DNA of 45,198 nt. Origin: Armatimonadota bacterium. Lineage in GTDB: Bacteria > Armatimonadota > Fimbriimonadia > Fimbriimonadales > GBS-DC. The stretch lies in assembly GCA_023511915.1 (NCBI GenBank), contig JAIMAN010000018.1, positions 1 through 45,198 on the forward strand, written 5' to 3'. The position numbers and the translations under genes are program-made. Below the pieces are notes generated by a model. That model saw nothing but the letters and a program-made list of their open reading frames with translations, did not search any database and was not told the origin of the DNA. Below are positions 14,095 to 41,169 of the stretch, one piece after another (position 1 is the stretch's first letter; each line of letters starts with the position of its first letter).

Positions 14095-16206
14095 TCACTG
14101 ATTGGGCAGGAATGTGCTGCGCCGTGTAGACCAGCTGATGTAGAGCCGCTCGCGGGCGCGGGTGCAGACCGTGTAGAGCAGCTGGCGCTCTTGGTCCTCC
14201 TTCGCTTTGCGCTCGGCGGTGTCCACAACATCTTTGATTGCCGCGTAGTTAGGGAAGTGACCCGCCGTAACTTGCACGACTGCCACTGCGCGGAACTCCA
14301 GCCCCTTGGCGTTGTGCGCCGTGCCGTAGTTGATCTCATGGGGCACGGGCATGGTGTCGCGCTTGAGCCTACGCGCTTGTATCCCGCGCTCATGCGAGAC
14401 CTCGTCGCGCAGCATGGTTTCAACAGGCGTGAGTGCGTTTTCGCTACGCGCGAAGATGGCAATCTCGCCGGGCTGGATGTTCTCGTTGAGGCAGCGGTAG
14501 ATCCACTCTTTCAGCCCGCGCATTTCGGCGGGGATGTTCTCGTAGCCGTGCAACTCGGGCGCAACGCCATGCATGAGCGCAATCGGGCGGTCGGAGAGGA
14601 TGCGCGTCTCGTCCTCTTGCACGCCTTCAATCGCTTCTGGCAGCACGCGCTCCGCGAAGTCTTGGATCTGGCGGGTGGTGCGGTAGTTGACGCGCAGGGT
14701 GTAGCTGCGCCCGCGCGTGTCGATGCCGAACCGCAGCCACGGCACGGCGGGACGATAGATGCGCTGACGCATGTCGGCGCACAGGAACAGCGCGTTCTCC
14801 AAGTCGGTCGGCGCTAGGGCGCGAATCAGCGTAAGCTCGGCGGGACCGAAATCTTGCGCCTCGTCGACCACCACGCATCGATAGCGCGCTTCGGGATGCT
14901 GGTTGAGGTACTCCGCAACCGCGTAGCAGAGGGCGCTGAAGGTCGTCAGATGGTGTTCCTCCAGCAGACGCCACATCCGTTCGAACACCTGCCAGAGTTC
15001 CTCGCGCTGCTTGCGCTGCAGGGGCATCTTCCGCCCGACGCGCTCAATCTGCAGGTAGGTCTCCAAGTCGCGCACTTGCCACGGGTCGATAATCGTCTCC
15101 CACTCCGGGCGCACGAAGGCGAGGGTATAGGGAGAGTTCACCTCGCGAATCGCCTGCTCAAGCAGCGCGTTCTGATCCTCGACGATGGCTTCCGTTCGGT
15201 TCAATTGCTGTGCGAACAAGCGTCGTGCGAGCGCGTGCAAGTTGACCACCTCGATTCCCGTCCCGTACAAGGAGCCGATGATCTGCTCGACGCGCTGCTT
15301 GAGGTTGTCCGCCAGCACGCCCGTGAAGGTCGTCAGCAAGATTGGCTCATTCGGATATTGTGTCGCCAGCCATGCGGTTCGGTGCGCCGCGACGACGGTT
15401 TTGCCTGTGCCTGCGCCGCCCCCAACGCGAATCGCTCCCTTCAGGTCGCGCTCCACCGCCTCGCGCTGCGCAGGATGCAGAAAGATTATCCACTCCTGCC
15501 AGCCGCGCTGAACCGCCTTGCGAATTTCCTGCTCGCTCTCAGGCGACCAGAAATCGCGCGGGTGACGACGCATCAGCTCCGACGGCATCAATATCGACAC
15601 TTGCGGGGGGAGTAGCTCGCGGTACGACTTCGTCTTGTCCTTCAGGTGTATCAGCCGCTCAATCACATCTTCAGGGAACCAGTCGTCGTCCAGCGCCTGC
15701 ACAAGGATGCGCTCAAGCTGCTCTTTGGTGGCTTTCGTCAGTCGCTCCGCCCAATCGCGGTCGGGGACGCCCAGGCGCATGATTTGTTCGGGCGTGTAGC
15801 CGCTCAGCGGCGCATGGAACACTGCCGAAGCCTCATCGGGCGCGGCTGTTGCTGCAATCGCCTCGTCAACAGGCGGCGCTAACGAGTAGCTGCCTGTGGT
15901 CAAATCTATCGTGAATCGCCTGCGCTCCGCCCACTGGTAGGCGGCGTCGTGGTGATCTACATAACAAACCACCCAGCTGTCATCCTGATCCGAGACAATC
16001 ACTCGGATGTCCATGTTCACATAGTAAGCCCACCAGCCTTTGTGCTTGGTGTGATCCAGTTCGTGGAAGCGCAGCGATGGATGCATCGGGTCTTGACGAA
16101 AGAGTTCGAGCTTCTCGTCGATCTCGCGATGATAGTGCGGCAATCGTTCGCGCGCCTTATTGTAGCGGCGCGTGATGACCACTTCTCTGTTTCCCGCAGT
16201 TCGCAT
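14095..16206 (-). CDS. UvrD/Rep-like SF1 helicase fused to an N-terminal RelE/ParE-like domain
   Basis: Protein of 703 aa. Residues about 10-98 resemble a RelE/ParE toxin fold (ITRRYNKARERLPHYHREIDEKLELFRQDP..., FHELDHTKHKGWWAYYVNMDIRVI, VDHHDAAYQWAERRRF). After a linker of about 130 residues comes an SF1 helicase: Walker A GGGAGTGKT (262-270), motif Ia LLTTFTGVLADNLKQRV, Walker B VVVDEAQDFG, motif III ADMRQRIYRPAVPW, motif IV LRVNYRTTRQI, motif V GTAHNAKGLEFRAVAVV, motif VI LYTVCTRARERLYISW. Such helicases act in DNA repair or on stalled replication forks; the RelE-like part suggests RNA or ribosome contact, but its catalytic residues are not obvious, so it may only bind. TATAAT ends 9 nt before the ATG. 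A near-copy of the start region lies 70 bp upstream. Confidence 0.85.
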   Translation of the reverse strand: MRTAGNREVVITRRYNKARERLPHYHREIDEKLELFRQDPMHPSLRFHELDHTKHKGWWAYYVNMDIRVIVSDQDDSWVVCYVDHHDAAYQWAERRRFTIDLTTGSYSLAPPVDEAIAATAAPDEASAVFHAPLSGYTPEQIMRLGVPDRDWAERLTKATKEQLERILVQALDDDWFPEDVIERLIHLKDKTKSYRELLPPQVSILMPSELMRRHPRDFWSPESEQEIRKAVQRGWQEWIIFLHPAQREAVERDLKGAIRVGGGAGTGKTVVAAHRTAWLATQYPNEPILLTTFTGVLADNLKQRVEQIIGSLYGTGIEVVNLHALARRLFAQQLNRTEAIVEDQNALLEQAIREVNSPYTLAFVRPEWETIIDPWQVRDLETYLQIERVGRKMPLQRKQREELWQVFERMWRLLEEHHLTTFSALCYAVAEYLNQHPEARYRCVVVDEAQDFGPAELTLIRALAPTDLENALFLCADMRQRIYRPAVPWLRFGIDTRGRSYTLRVNYRTTRQIQDFAERVLPEAIEGVQEDETRILSDRPIALMHGVAPELHGYENIPAEMRGLKEWIYRCLNENIQPGEIAIFARSENALTPVETMLRDEVSHERGIQARRLKRDTMPVPHEINYGTAHNAKGLEFRAVAVVQVTAGHFPNYAAIKDVVDTAERKAKEDQERQLLYTVCTRARERLYISWSTRRSTFLPNQ

Positions 16207-16285
16207 AGTTCACCCATTATACCTAATACCCGATCAGAATGCCAAGTGCTGCTCACTGTTTCCCACAGTGCGCATCGTTCACCTC
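16186..16285. repeat. Imperfect direct repeat duplicating the helicase start region
   Basis: Copies at 16186-16215 and 16256-16285 (minus strand: GGTGAAC, then ATGCG, ACTG, GGGAAACAG) agree at most positions over 30 bp. The downstream copy is the real helicase start (MRTAGNRE). The upstream copy begins a 13-codon reading frame (MRTVGNSEQHLAF) with its own GGAGGTG ribosome site and stops before the helicase promoter. It may be a remnant of a duplicated or replaced gene start, or a leader peptide. Confidence 0.6.
16216..16221 (-). promoter_or_regulatory. -10 element (GGTATAAT) of the helicase gene, leaderless type
   Basis: Minus-strand GGTATAAT ends 9 nt before the ATG; perfect consensus hexamer. 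Confidence 0.7.
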
Positions 16286-16288
16286 CGC

Positions 16289-16322
16289 GCTGTTCGCAGC
16301 GACAGAGGCGACTGCGAACAGC
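16289..16322 (-). terminator. Perfect 11-bp stem-loop downstream of the symporter gene
   Basis: GCTGTTCGCAG (16289-16299) / CTGCGAACAGC (16312-16322) with a 12-nt loop, starting 3 bp after the symporter stop. The tight placement suggests a terminator or 3' mRNA barrier for that gene, though there is no U-tract. Confidence 0.5.
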
Positions 16323-16325
16323 ATT

Positions 16326-17549
16326 CTACTTCCGACCGACAACATTCGCCAAGATCACCGCGCCTCCTGCATCGCCCTCGACATTGACCATCGTGCGGAA
16401 CATGTCCAGAATGCGGTCAACCGCCAGAATCAGCCCGATGCCCTCCAGCGGCAGCCCGACCGCCTGCAGCACAATCACCATCGTGAACAGCCCCGCGCTG
16501 GGGATGCCCGCCGCGCCAATCGCCGCCAGCGTCGCCGTGAACAGCACCACCATCTGCTGCGTGAACTCCAGTTGCACGCCATACGCCTGCGCGATAAATA
16601 GCGCGGCGACCGCCTCGTACAGCGCCGTGCCGTCCATGTTCACCGTCGCGCCGATGGGGATGCAGAACCGACTGATGTAGCCGGGCACTTTGAGTTCGCG
16701 TTCGACGGTGCGCATCGTCACGGGCAGCGTCGCCGCGCTGGAGCTGGTGCTGAGCGCGGTAATCATCGCGTTCGAGACGCCCGCCAAAAACCGCCACGGG
16801 GGCACGCCCCCAAGCAGCCACACCAGCAGCGGCAGCACAATCAGCCCGTGCACCGCCAGCCCGCCCAGCACCGCGCCCATATATTTGGCGAGCGGCGCGA
16901 ACACCTCCCAGCCCGCCTGACCAATCGCCCGCGCCAACAGCAACGCCACACCCACCGGCAACAGATACAGCACCCAGCGCACGATGACCATCGAGAGGTC
17001 GAGCAACTCCGCCACGAAGCCTTTGAGCGCCTGCGCGCGGTCGCCCATCAGGTTCAACGCAACGCCAACAATCAGGCTGAAGCTGATAATCTGCAGCATA
17101 TCGGCGCGGGCAAGCGCGTCGATGGGGTTCGCGGGGATAAGGTTGCGCAACAAATCGGCGAAGGTCGGCGGCTCGCGCTCCAGAATCTCCTTGGGCGTTT
17201 GTGCGCCTTGCAGCACCGCGCCGACGCCAGGGTCAACCAAGTTCACAATCACCAGCCCCAGCGCGGCTGCCAGCACAGTGGTCGTCGTGTAATACACCAG
17301 CGTAATGACGCCCAGCCGTCCCAGATAGCGCGTGTCCAGTCCCGCCGCCGCCGAAATCAGCGAGGCGACCACCAGCGGCACAATCACCATCCGCAGCAGG
17401 CGGATGAACAAGTCCGCGCCCAGCCCCACTATGCCGAACAGCGGCGACTCCGTTCCGCCCGCGCGATTGAGCAGCAAGCCCCCGACAATCCCTATCAGGA
17501 TGCCCGCCACAACCCATCGGAGGGACACAAACTCCCTGTCGCGTTCCAT
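16326..17549 (-). CDS. Dicarboxylate/amino acid:cation symporter (DAACS family)
   Basis: Secondary transporter of the GltP/DctA type, 407 aa, taking up C4-dicarboxylates or Glu/Asp with protons or sodium. Family landmarks in order: N-terminal helices with LRWVVAGILIGIVGGLL; MVIVPLVVASLISAAAGL; the serine-rich hairpin HP1 in ALSTSSSAATLP; TM7 signature NMDGTALYEAVAALFIAQAYGV; HP2 in GIPSAGLFTMVIVLQAVGLP; TM8 with VDRILDMFRTMVNVEGDA carrying substrate- and ion-binding Asp and Asn. Substrate choice cannot be read safely. The start MERDREF just before TM1 fits the family; an upstream in-frame ATG would add a non-homologous tail. It stands alone and diverges from the WD40 gene. Confidence 0.92.
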   Translation of the reverse strand: MERDREFVSLRWVVAGILIGIVGGLLLNRAGGTESPLFGIVGLGADLFIRLLRMVIVPLVVASLISAAAGLDTRYLGRLGVITLVYYTTTTVLAAALGLVIVNLVDPGVGAVLQGAQTPKEILEREPPTFADLLRNLIPANPIDALARADMLQIISFSLIVGVALNLMGDRAQALKGFVAELLDLSMVIVRWVLYLLPVGVALLLARAIGQAGWEVFAPLAKYMGAVLGGLAVHGLIVLPLLVWLLGGVPPWRFLAGVSNAMITALSTSSSAATLPVTMRTVERELKVPGYISRFCIPIGATVNMDGTALYEAVAALFIAQAYGVQLEFTQQMVVLFTATLAAIGAAGIPSAGLFTMVIVLQAVGLPLEGIGLILAVDRILDMFRTMVNVEGDAGGAVILANVVGRK

Positions 17550-39090: not shown

Positions 39091-41169
39091 CTACCGCGAG
39101 CGTCGTGCGAGCATCTGCTCCGCTTCGGCAAGCAGGGCGTCGAGTGTCTGGTCGCGGTAGCCGCGTTCGCGCAGGTCGGTGAGCGCTTGCTTGGCTTCGG
39201 CGGGGCGATTCTGCAAAATGCGCAGGCGCGCCAGCGCGATGCCGTAGGCGACTCGGTCTGGGTCGCGCTGCGCCGCCGCCTGCAGGTGCGCCTCCGCCGA
39301 AGCCAAGTCGCGCTGGTTCATCCAGTGGTGCGCGGCGGCAATCCACTTGCTGGCTTGCTGCAACTCGCGCAGTCCCTGCTCGGCAGCCGTGCCCGCAGGG
39401 TTCGGAATCAGCGCATACGCCGCGCGGAACTCGGCTTCGGCGAGGTCTAACCGCGCCTTGCGTGCATAGAGCAGCCCCAACGCCTGATGCCCATAAAACT
39501 TCGGCGTGCGCCCCAGCACGCGCTCGCGAATAATGCGCTCCGACTCGTCGAATTCGCCCCGCTCGGAGAGCATCACCGCAAGGTTGTTCCAGCCGACGAT
39601 GTTGTGGGGCTCGATTTCGGTCGCTTGACGGAACAGTGCAATCGCCGCGTCGGGGTCGCCCAAGCGCAGCAGCGCGACGCCCTTGTTCACATAGCCCATC
39701 CCGCTGCGCGGGGCGACCTGAATGGCTTTCTCGGCGTACTCCAGCGCTTCGGTGTGGCGTCCCTGCTTGTTATACAGGTCGGACAGGTTGCTATACCCAA
39801 TCGGCGAGCGCGGCGCAGCGACCGTGACCCACTTCCAGAACGATTCGGCGTCGCGCCAGTTGGGGAGGTTGTAAGCCGTGGTCAGCAGCAGTGCGGCGCA
39901 GTAGCCAACCATCGCGCCTTGGATTGCCCGCACGCGCCGCGCCGACGCCCGCCCCAGCAGCCCCACCACAAGCCCCAGCACGATGAGCGCGAGCGGGAAG
40001 GTCAGGAACCGCTCCGCCGTGAAGACGCCAAACGCGAACTCCATCGGGCGCAGGTTCAGCACGGGCAGTAGCCCGACCAGCCCCGCCCCAAGCAGCCAAC
40101 CCACGCGCGGCTGACGACGCGCCATCCACCCAACGCCCGCCACAACAGCAACCGCAATCGCCAACTGCGCCCACGCCCAGCCGTCGCTGAGCAGAATCGG
40201 CAACTCCGAGTGGTGCGCGGGCGTGATGCTGAAAAACGGGAAGACCGCCAGCCCCGTTAGCGTCGCCAGCGTGCGCCCGACCAGTAGCAGGTGCTGGAGC
40301 GGCGTGCCCACGTCTATTTGCAAGTTCTCAGGCGGCGTGGTGAACAGGTAGCCCAGCGCGGCGTAGCGCAGCGCGAAGTAGACGCCCAGCGCAACCGCCA
40401 GCCCCGCATAGAGCGCACGCTCGCGGCGGAGTAAATCCCGCACATACGCCAGCGAGAAACGCCCCCCCCTCCGTGAGGTTCCCCCCACTGCGTGAGGGGA
40501 ACCCAGCGCAGGCGGTTCCCCTTGCGGAGCAGGGGGAACCTTCGAGGAGGGGGGCTTGGCATCCGTCGGATAACCCACCGCCAGTTGCCACAGGAGCATC
40601 ACCAGCGGCAGGGTAAGCGCGACCTCCTTGCACAGCAGGGCGAGCAGGAACGCCGTCGCGACGCCCGCCACACGCGCCGCGCCCTGCAAACGCCCCTCCA
40701 GCCACAACGCCAGCAGCAGAAACAGCGTCGCCAGCAGGTCGTACCGCGACGAGACGAACGCCACGCTCTCCACCAGCGCGGGATGCGCCCCGTACAGCGC
40801 GCCTGCCAACACTCCCTGCCAACGCCCGCCCAGCAGCCGCAGCCCCAACACGCACACCAGCGCGGTGTTCACGAGGTGAATCAGCACATTCGCCGCGTGG
40901 AACGGCGCGGGGTTCGCCTGCCAGACCCAGATTTGCACGAGCAGACTGCTGAGCGCGAGTGGGCGGAAGTAGTTCGGCGAGAAGTCCAGCGGCTGGCGCA
41001 CCGCCTCCAGCCAGCGCGACGGCGACTGGTACTCGATGCGCCCGTAGATGATTTGGTCGTCGTCCCAGACGAACCCGAAGCCGAGCGTCTGGGCGTAGAC
41101 CGCGCCGACCACTATCACGACCGCCAGCACGCCCAGCGCGTGCGCACGCCACAAGCGTTGGAAAAACAC
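39091..41169 (-). CDS. Multi-pass membrane protein with C-terminal TPR repeats (TMTC-like)
   Basis: Protein of 692 aa. About ten membrane helices (residues 10-430) start with an acidic loop WDDDQIIYG and YFRPLALSSLLVQIWVW, the GT-C/PMT-like pattern also found in the TMTC O-mannosyltransferases and in the gene at 6.3 kb. The C-terminal 240 residues are TPR repeats (SPIGYSNLSDLYNKQGRHTEALEYAEKAIQVAP, SGMGYVNKGVALLRLGDPDAAIALFRQATEIEP, HNIVGWNNLAVMLSERGEFDES). Protein glycosylation at the membrane is a reasonable guess. GTG start, with TATACT ending 5 nt upstream. Residues about 205-236 (Pro/Gly/Ser-rich) are encoded by a palindromic repeat inserted in frame in a loop between helices. Confidence 0.8.
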   Translation of the reverse strand: MFFQRLWRAHALGVLAVVIVVGAVYAQTLGFGFVWDDDQIIYGRIEYQSPSRWLEAVRQPLDFSPNYFRPLALSSLLVQIWVWQANPAPFHAANVLIHLVNTALVCVLGLRLLGGRWQGVLAGALYGAHPALVESVAFVSSRYDLLATLFLLLALWLEGRLQGAARVAGVATAFLLALLCKEVALTLPLVMLLWQLAVGYPTDAKPPSSKVPPAPQGEPPALGSPHAVGGTSRRGGRFSLAYVRDLLRRERALYAGLAVALGVYFALRYAALGYLFTTPPENLQIDVGTPLQHLLLVGRTLATLTGLAVFPFFSITPAHHSELPILLSDGWAWAQLAIAVAVVAGVGWMARRQPRVGWLLGAGLVGLLPVLNLRPMEFAFGVFTAERFLTFPLALIVLGLVVGLLGRASARRVRAIQGAMVGYCAALLLTTAYNLPNWRDAESFWKWVTVAAPRSPIGYSNLSDLYNKQGRHTEALEYAEKAIQVAPRSGMGYVNKGVALLRLGDPDAAIALFRQATEIEPHNIVGWNNLAVMLSERGEFDESERIIRERVLGRTPKFYGHQALGLLYARKARLDLAEAEFRAAYALIPNPAGTAAEQGLRELQQASKWIAAAHHWMNQRDLASAEAHLQAAAQRDPDRVAYGIALARLRILQNRPAEAKQALTDLRERGYRDQTLDALLAEAEQMLARRSR
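40461..40555. repeat. Three-armed palindromic element inserted in frame in the TPR gene
   Basis: Outer arms GCCCCCCCCTCC (40461-40472) and GGAGGGGGGC (40546-40555) can pair. Inside are two hairpins with the same stem, GGTTCCCC/GGGGAACC (40477-40503 and 40514-40540). The 95-bp unit folds as a clover-like structure on either strand and keeps the reading frame open, adding about 32 Pro/Gly/Ser-rich residues to a loop. No target-site duplication is obvious. It resembles short palindromic mobile repeats that insert within genes, such as those of Rickettsia. Confidence 0.7.

Follow-up and report, generated by a model that had tools for sequence, protein, structure and literature searches.

A GC-rich palindromic element dispersed in a Fimbriimonadales genome and inserted in frame in several conserved genes

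A gene for a membrane protein with C-terminal TPR repeats, from an Armatimonadota bacterium of the Fimbriimonadales, carries within its coding sequence one copy of a palindromic unit of ~90 bp, which occurs in multiple copies in the same genome. The family is multicopy, its insertion in genes is lineage-specific, and it has been inserted in frame in several conserved genes. The copy described here is very probably one of a set of dispersed, non-autonomous palindromic elements which have spread within one Fimbriimonadales family and can enter protein genes. We infer that such spreading occurs by transposition in trans, via a putative enzyme, and that the resulting loops are near-neutral.

Results

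The unit and its host gene in the window

The window, i.e., the whole stretch of DNA analyzed (45,198 nucleotides), contains the copy at positions 40464-40553 of the minus strand, where it scores 76 bits against the family model; this canonical orientation is also that of the coding strand of the host gene. The initial annotation had placed the element at 40461-40555, and its account of the sequence stands, with the limits now refined to those of the canonical unit. The unit is built of CCCCCTCC/GGAGGGGG outer arms which enclose two GGTTCCCC/GGGGAACC hairpins, and the proposed arrangement of two hairpins with a common stem inside pairing arms, all in frame, was recovered in full in the window. 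The features are as follows.

39091-41169, minus strand: host gene (ORF), 692-aa membrane protein with C-terminal TPR repeats
40354-40419, minus strand: predicted helix, residues 251-272, directly after the inserted loop (structure model)
40464-40553, minus strand: palindromic unit in canonical orientation (family-model match, 76 bits)
40464-40472, no strand: pairing outer arm CCCCCCTCC, the right arm in canonical orientation
40477-40503, no strand: hairpin with GGTTCCCC/GGGGAACC stem, the second in canonical orientation
40514-40540, no strand: hairpin with GGTTCCCC/GGGGAACC stem, the first in canonical orientation
40546-40554, no strand: pairing outer arm GGAGGGGGG, the left arm in canonical orientation
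40573-40626, minus strand: predicted helix, residues 182-199, directly before the inserted loop (structure model)

When folded as single-stranded DNA, the window element gives a z of -4.1, with none of 200 shuffles as good. Its lowest-energy fold is one long interrupted hairpin, and the consensus fold of 26 copies is an outer stem with two hairpins. The motif GGTTCCCC occurs six times in the window, compared to 1.1 expected. A known RNA family was rejected as the identity of the unit, since no family in Rfam 15 exceeded its gathering score, the top one (mir-2545) reaching 37 bits versus a gathering score of 94.

The unit corresponds in frame to residues 206-236 of the ORF, with the peptide PPSSKVPPAPQGEPPALGSPHAVGGTSRRGG, and this inserted loop is flanked by predicted helices at residues 182-199 and 240-249/251-272. 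In the AlphaFold model of the protein, the insert is located in a coil (residues 200-239) with a block pLDDT of ~41-54, bordered on either side by confident helices. Orthologs from ten other genomes of the genus align well on both flanks, and the loop is found in none of the ten. Between fixed anchors, the window gene comprises 201 nt, compared to 96 nt in each of G010, G008 and G004, i.e., a net gain of exactly 105 bp; insertion sizes are given throughout as net values, the nearest full-length ortholog of the window protein (73% identical) being too diverged for exact ends. The window copy would thereby have added 35 residues to a loop between two predicted helices. The initial annotation had called for a search for homologs lacking the loop and for additional genomic copies of the unit. 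Both were found, and the combination of a unique unit with a conserved loop, which would have spoken against mobility, is excluded by the loop-less orthologs and by the ~78 places at which the unit occurs.

The repeat family in the genome

The genome searched (2.73 Mb, Fimbriimonadales, an assembly in 122 contigs) contains 132 matches to the pattern GGTTCCCCN{2,20}GGGGAACC and none to the reversed control pattern. A covariance model built from 26 copies yielded 146 matches over both strands, which were merged by hand to 78 distinct places, and the copy number is thus to be read as "about 78". The consensus consists of CCCCCTCCTTAAGGTTCCCCCTGCNNGCAGGGGGAACC, a linker of ~8-20 nt and GGTTCCCCTCGCGAAGCGGGGGGAACCTNAAGGAGGGGGG, often followed by CAA. 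Individual copies contain one (51 nt), two (~85-98 nt) or three (~125-137 nt) hairpins, most copies being 85-98 bp in length, and the outer arms pair in nearly all of them. The closest pairs of copies are 96-97% identical, with a median pair at 77%.

The covariation term of the 26 copies is about zero (-0.04), such that the pairing reflects the anatomy of the element and provides no evidence of an RNA function. The unit has a GC content of 72%, and roughly half of its frames are open. Special adaptation to many open frames was rejected as an explanation, since the 3.36 open frames of the unit compare to 3.31 in shuffled sequence; being short and GC-rich would suffice.

In-frame copies in other genes

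Thirteen of the 78 copies are located inside ORFs which run through the unit and exhibit coding-like codon usage on either side. The identified hosts are MurE, MurD, alanine racemase (alr), PrmC, a Ppx/GppA-type protein, a GlcE-like protein, a PMT-type membrane protein, a tandem ABC ATPase, a HEAT-repeat protein and the window protein. Three of the 13 ORFs (C111, C22 and C95; membrane-protein-like) were assigned by codon usage alone or nearly so, and the tandem ABC ATPase has a weak left codon-usage score owing to the repetition of several units at that site. The hosts include cell-wall enzymes which are essential in other bacteria.

For seven genes, the relatives compared lack the unit. The net insertion amounts to 87 bp in the HEAT-repeat gene, 84-87 bp in prmC, 129 bp in ppx and 150 bp in alr, which contains a three-hairpin copy; in MurE and MurD the insert is visible in protein alignments with relatives (a single relative for MurD). 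Alignments to solved chains of MurE, MurD, Alr, PrmC/HemK and exopolyphosphatase break off and resume at the insert. The MurE model has moderate confidence (mean pLDDT 70); its insert region (326-361), flanked by two strands, scores below pLDDT 50, and the modeled chain can nonetheless be matched to MurE structures. The murE and murD genes are ~4 kb apart on one contig. The ORF of the GlcE-like gene (C14:30740) is uninterrupted, and translation seemingly extends to part of an outer frame, described below; homologs of the protein are too variable at this position to reveal an empty site. Among the relatives, none of the 33 distinct copies examined is an in-frame gene copy, and peptide matches in G001 were rejected as such, their frames having no coding signal.

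Other repeat-like in-frame insertions, of the PSPPGPLSRVAGEGEQG and LTPCPSPTVQERG types, were observed in murE of G009 (L206) and in murE and prmC of G010 (L205 and L264, respectively), where they occupy the same loops as the GGTTCCCC unit does in this genome.

Distribution among genomes

The family model detects the unit in 11 of the 13 genomes of the genus; in the remaining members, G004 and G006, it went undetected with the more stringent filters applied to multi-genome searches. Of the five other genomes of the family, four carry the unit (G013, G014, G016 and G017) and G015 does not. Beyond the family, its occurrence is sporadic and it is rare elsewhere in the phylum: in a phylum sample of 251 genomes, 10 reach an E of 1e-6, seven of which belong to this family. 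The related contigs carry the titles Fimbriimonadales or Armatimonadota. A phage or plasmid source was considered and rejected, as viral contigs showed no match to an exact 27-mer of the unit and plasmids none to its consensus.

Intergenic copies and the outer frame

The remaining 65 copies lie between genes, for the most part close to a 3' end. With neighboring genes predicted from codon usage by a simple script, 56 of the 65 have a called gene on each side (25 same-strand, 22 convergent and 9 divergent); the median distance is 41 bp for a neighboring 3' end and 95 bp for a 5' end. Since bacterial genomes consist mostly of coding sequence, random insertion would have placed far more than 13 of the 78 copies in genes, and the deficit is what the loss of most gene insertions would produce.

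A second inverted repeat, ATACCAATCGCC...GAGTTCATAA / TTATGAACTCTG...GCGATTGGTAT, surrounds many of the intergenic copies. A loose motif test detected one or both outer arms at 42 of the 65 intergenic copies versus 2 of the 13 gene copies. The outer inverted repeat ATACCAATCGC...GCGATTGGTAT encloses copies at many loci (e.g., L085, L087 and L092), and was also seen with another interior, without this core (L101). In other species, the same core appears in other surrounding frames.

Discussion

How the unit may spread

The preferred reading is that of a non-autonomous unit which would be copied or moved in trans, landing widely. Most copies would be retained between genes near 3' ends, where they may do the least harm, and copies in genes would survive if their length preserves the frame and the GC-rich unit is free of stops in that frame. 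Such surviving copies would then encode a Pro/Gly/Ser/Arg-rich peptide in a tolerant loop.

A REP/REPIN-type element, mobilized by a RAYT (Y1, TnpA-REP) transposase of the same genome, would account for the paired hairpins, the many copies and the placement near 3' ends, and the genome does contain two Y1_Tnp genes. Yet one of these is flanked by a different repeat, GGAGTGCTGAAGC...GCTTCAGC, and no unit borders the other, the closest one lying ~2 kb away within a different gene. Moreover, G004 and G006, in which the unit went undetected, also have Y1 genes, and the ends of the unit (consensus CCCCCTCC and GGAGGGGGG) bear no GTAG or CGTC tag. Inspection of both Y1 genes of the genome thus revealed no RAYT gene flanked by the same unit and gave no support for a RAYT as the mover, and we regard this explanation as unlikely.

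The different repeat surrounds the Y1 (RAYT-like) gene at L114, ~15700-16900 (G000:C111:34408-34680 and flanks), in four copies on each side, as GGAGTGCTGAAGC...GCTTCAGC upstream and GCGGAAGCTTCGCTTCCGCACTCC downstream, and was seen at other loci as well. A Y1 gene of ~250 aa (L046, G000:C111:22861-23181, and relatives), with an HTH-like C-terminus, occurs in every genome of the genus searched and looks domesticated.

The mobile unit could instead be the larger outer frame ATACCAATCGC...GCGATTGGTAT, a MITE, of which the bare cores would be remnants; the frequency of outer arms at intergenic copies by the loose motif test, and their pairing at many loci, are in favor of such a view. The gene copies, however, point the other way: 11 of the 13 do not have both arms by the same loose test, and the net insertions in prmC and in the HEAT-repeat gene approximate the core in size. 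That other species carry this core in different frames, and that the frame surrounds another interior as well, also counts against such a view, and it is quite improbable that the outer frame was the unit which moved into the genes.

It is very unlikely that the unit is mainly a functional hairpin, i.e., a terminator or a stabilizer of mRNA 3' ends, spread by recombination or gene conversion with the gene copies as by-products. The hairpins are indeed strong, and the convergent setting of 22 of the 56 scorable intergenic copies, together with the median of 41 bp to a 3' end, would suit this role, but selection against harmful insertions predicts the same placement. The covariation term lends hardly any support to selection on an RNA structure, and clean insertions in seven unrelated genes require an insertion process. 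Finally, the GC-rich, low-complexity character of the stretch might point to palindromes arisen by chance in GC-rich coding sequence or to a long-conserved loop of the protein, but both can be dismissed in view of the 132 genome matches versus zero for the control and the orthologs without the loop.

Relation to known repeats

The initial annotation had likened the element to the RPE of Rickettsia, and this likeness has become stronger, with about twelve further copies found in frame in other genes. In reviews of Ogata 2000 and 2002 (PMC2229807 and PMC10969869), RPEs are described as multicopy elements of 105-146 bp which lie in frame within many genes; an RPE-bearing guanylate kinase was tested and still active. 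Both RPE and the present unit are multicopy palindromes of ~100 bp, intergenic as well as in frame in unrelated conserved genes. They differ in the host phylum, in the GC-rich double hairpin with GGTTCCCC stems and in the share of copies in genes, which is about one sixth here compared to nearly half as reported for R. conorii. In light of the different phylum and the 72% GC of the unit, descent from RPE is unlikely; the likeness is one of behavior, and the two are set apart by their descriptions.

In-frame REPs occur in other bacteria, e.g., Opitutus terrae and Thauera (Di Nocera 2013, PMC3733652). These are likewise hairpin repeats located mostly near 3' ends and in some cases in frame, the in-frame ones often being dimers which encode 20-30 residues; they carry GTAG/CGTC tags, the GTAG types being tied to RAYT, whereas the present unit has neither tag nor linked RAYT. 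REPINs (PMC3116915) share with it the two hairpins per dispersed unit, but differ in their RAYT, none having been found flanked by this unit. As in MITEs, the unit is small and non-autonomous, with terminal inverted arms and no coding capacity for a transposase, and many copies are surrounded by an outer frame which resembles a MITE; MITEs are further marked by a target-site duplication and a related autonomous element, and the relatives compared here are too diverged for exact ends. Fungal mitochondria harbor GC-rich double-hairpin elements which are thought to be mobile, some of them in genes; these are organelle elements, likened here by description. Palindromic repeats with coding potential are also referenced for Wolbachia and Methanocaldococcus jannaschii (Ogata 2005, Suyama 2005, as referenced in PMC2229807), and are similarly likened by description.

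The phenomenon of in-frame palindromic insertion is thus already known. Protein-coding palindromic repeats are dispersed multicopy palindromes of ~50-150 bp, present in frame in several unrelated conserved genes; the present unit occupies 78 places, mostly at 85-98 bp, and 13 ORFs, with insertion relative to relatives in seven genes. It represents a new family among such repeats, classified by behavior, and is not filed as RPE or REPIN by descent. The literature searched, with most subscription journals outside its coverage, contained no description of such a unit from Armatimonadota.

Significance

The best-known in-frame palindromic insertions in conserved genes are those of Rickettsia and Wolbachia. 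In the Armatimonadota lineage studied here, a comparable pattern affects murE, murD, alr and prmC, three of which serve the synthesis of peptidoglycan precursors. Weak selection in intracellular life is a natural explanation for the insertions in Rickettsia and Wolbachia, and Armatimonadota, to our knowledge, is not an intracellular phylum. Since many related genomes are without the inserts, they provide natural pairs of enzymes with and without the loop, in which the cost or effect of insertion is directly measurable.

The MurE loop contains the GGTTCCCC unit in this genome and other repeat-like insertions, of GEG type, in G009 and G010. We tentatively raise the possibility that core enzymes continue to gain in-frame loops from several unrelated palindromic repeat families, in some cases at the same loop in different species, by a non-RAYT route. 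If true, this would constitute an ongoing source of new protein loops outside Rickettsiales.

Additional arrangements of repeats were observed at single loci. In G001, whole units form nearly identical head-to-tail arrays with a spacing of ~101-106 bp (G001:C64:1478-1772, L199, and G001:C68:13341-13736, L198), which suggests local amplification. A membrane-protein-like ORF (L174:1395-2630, G000:C95) contains the GGTTCCCC unit and, later in its sequence, a second repeat-like segment, PPPRPSPHAGRARGFLPRVRGRLGGG.
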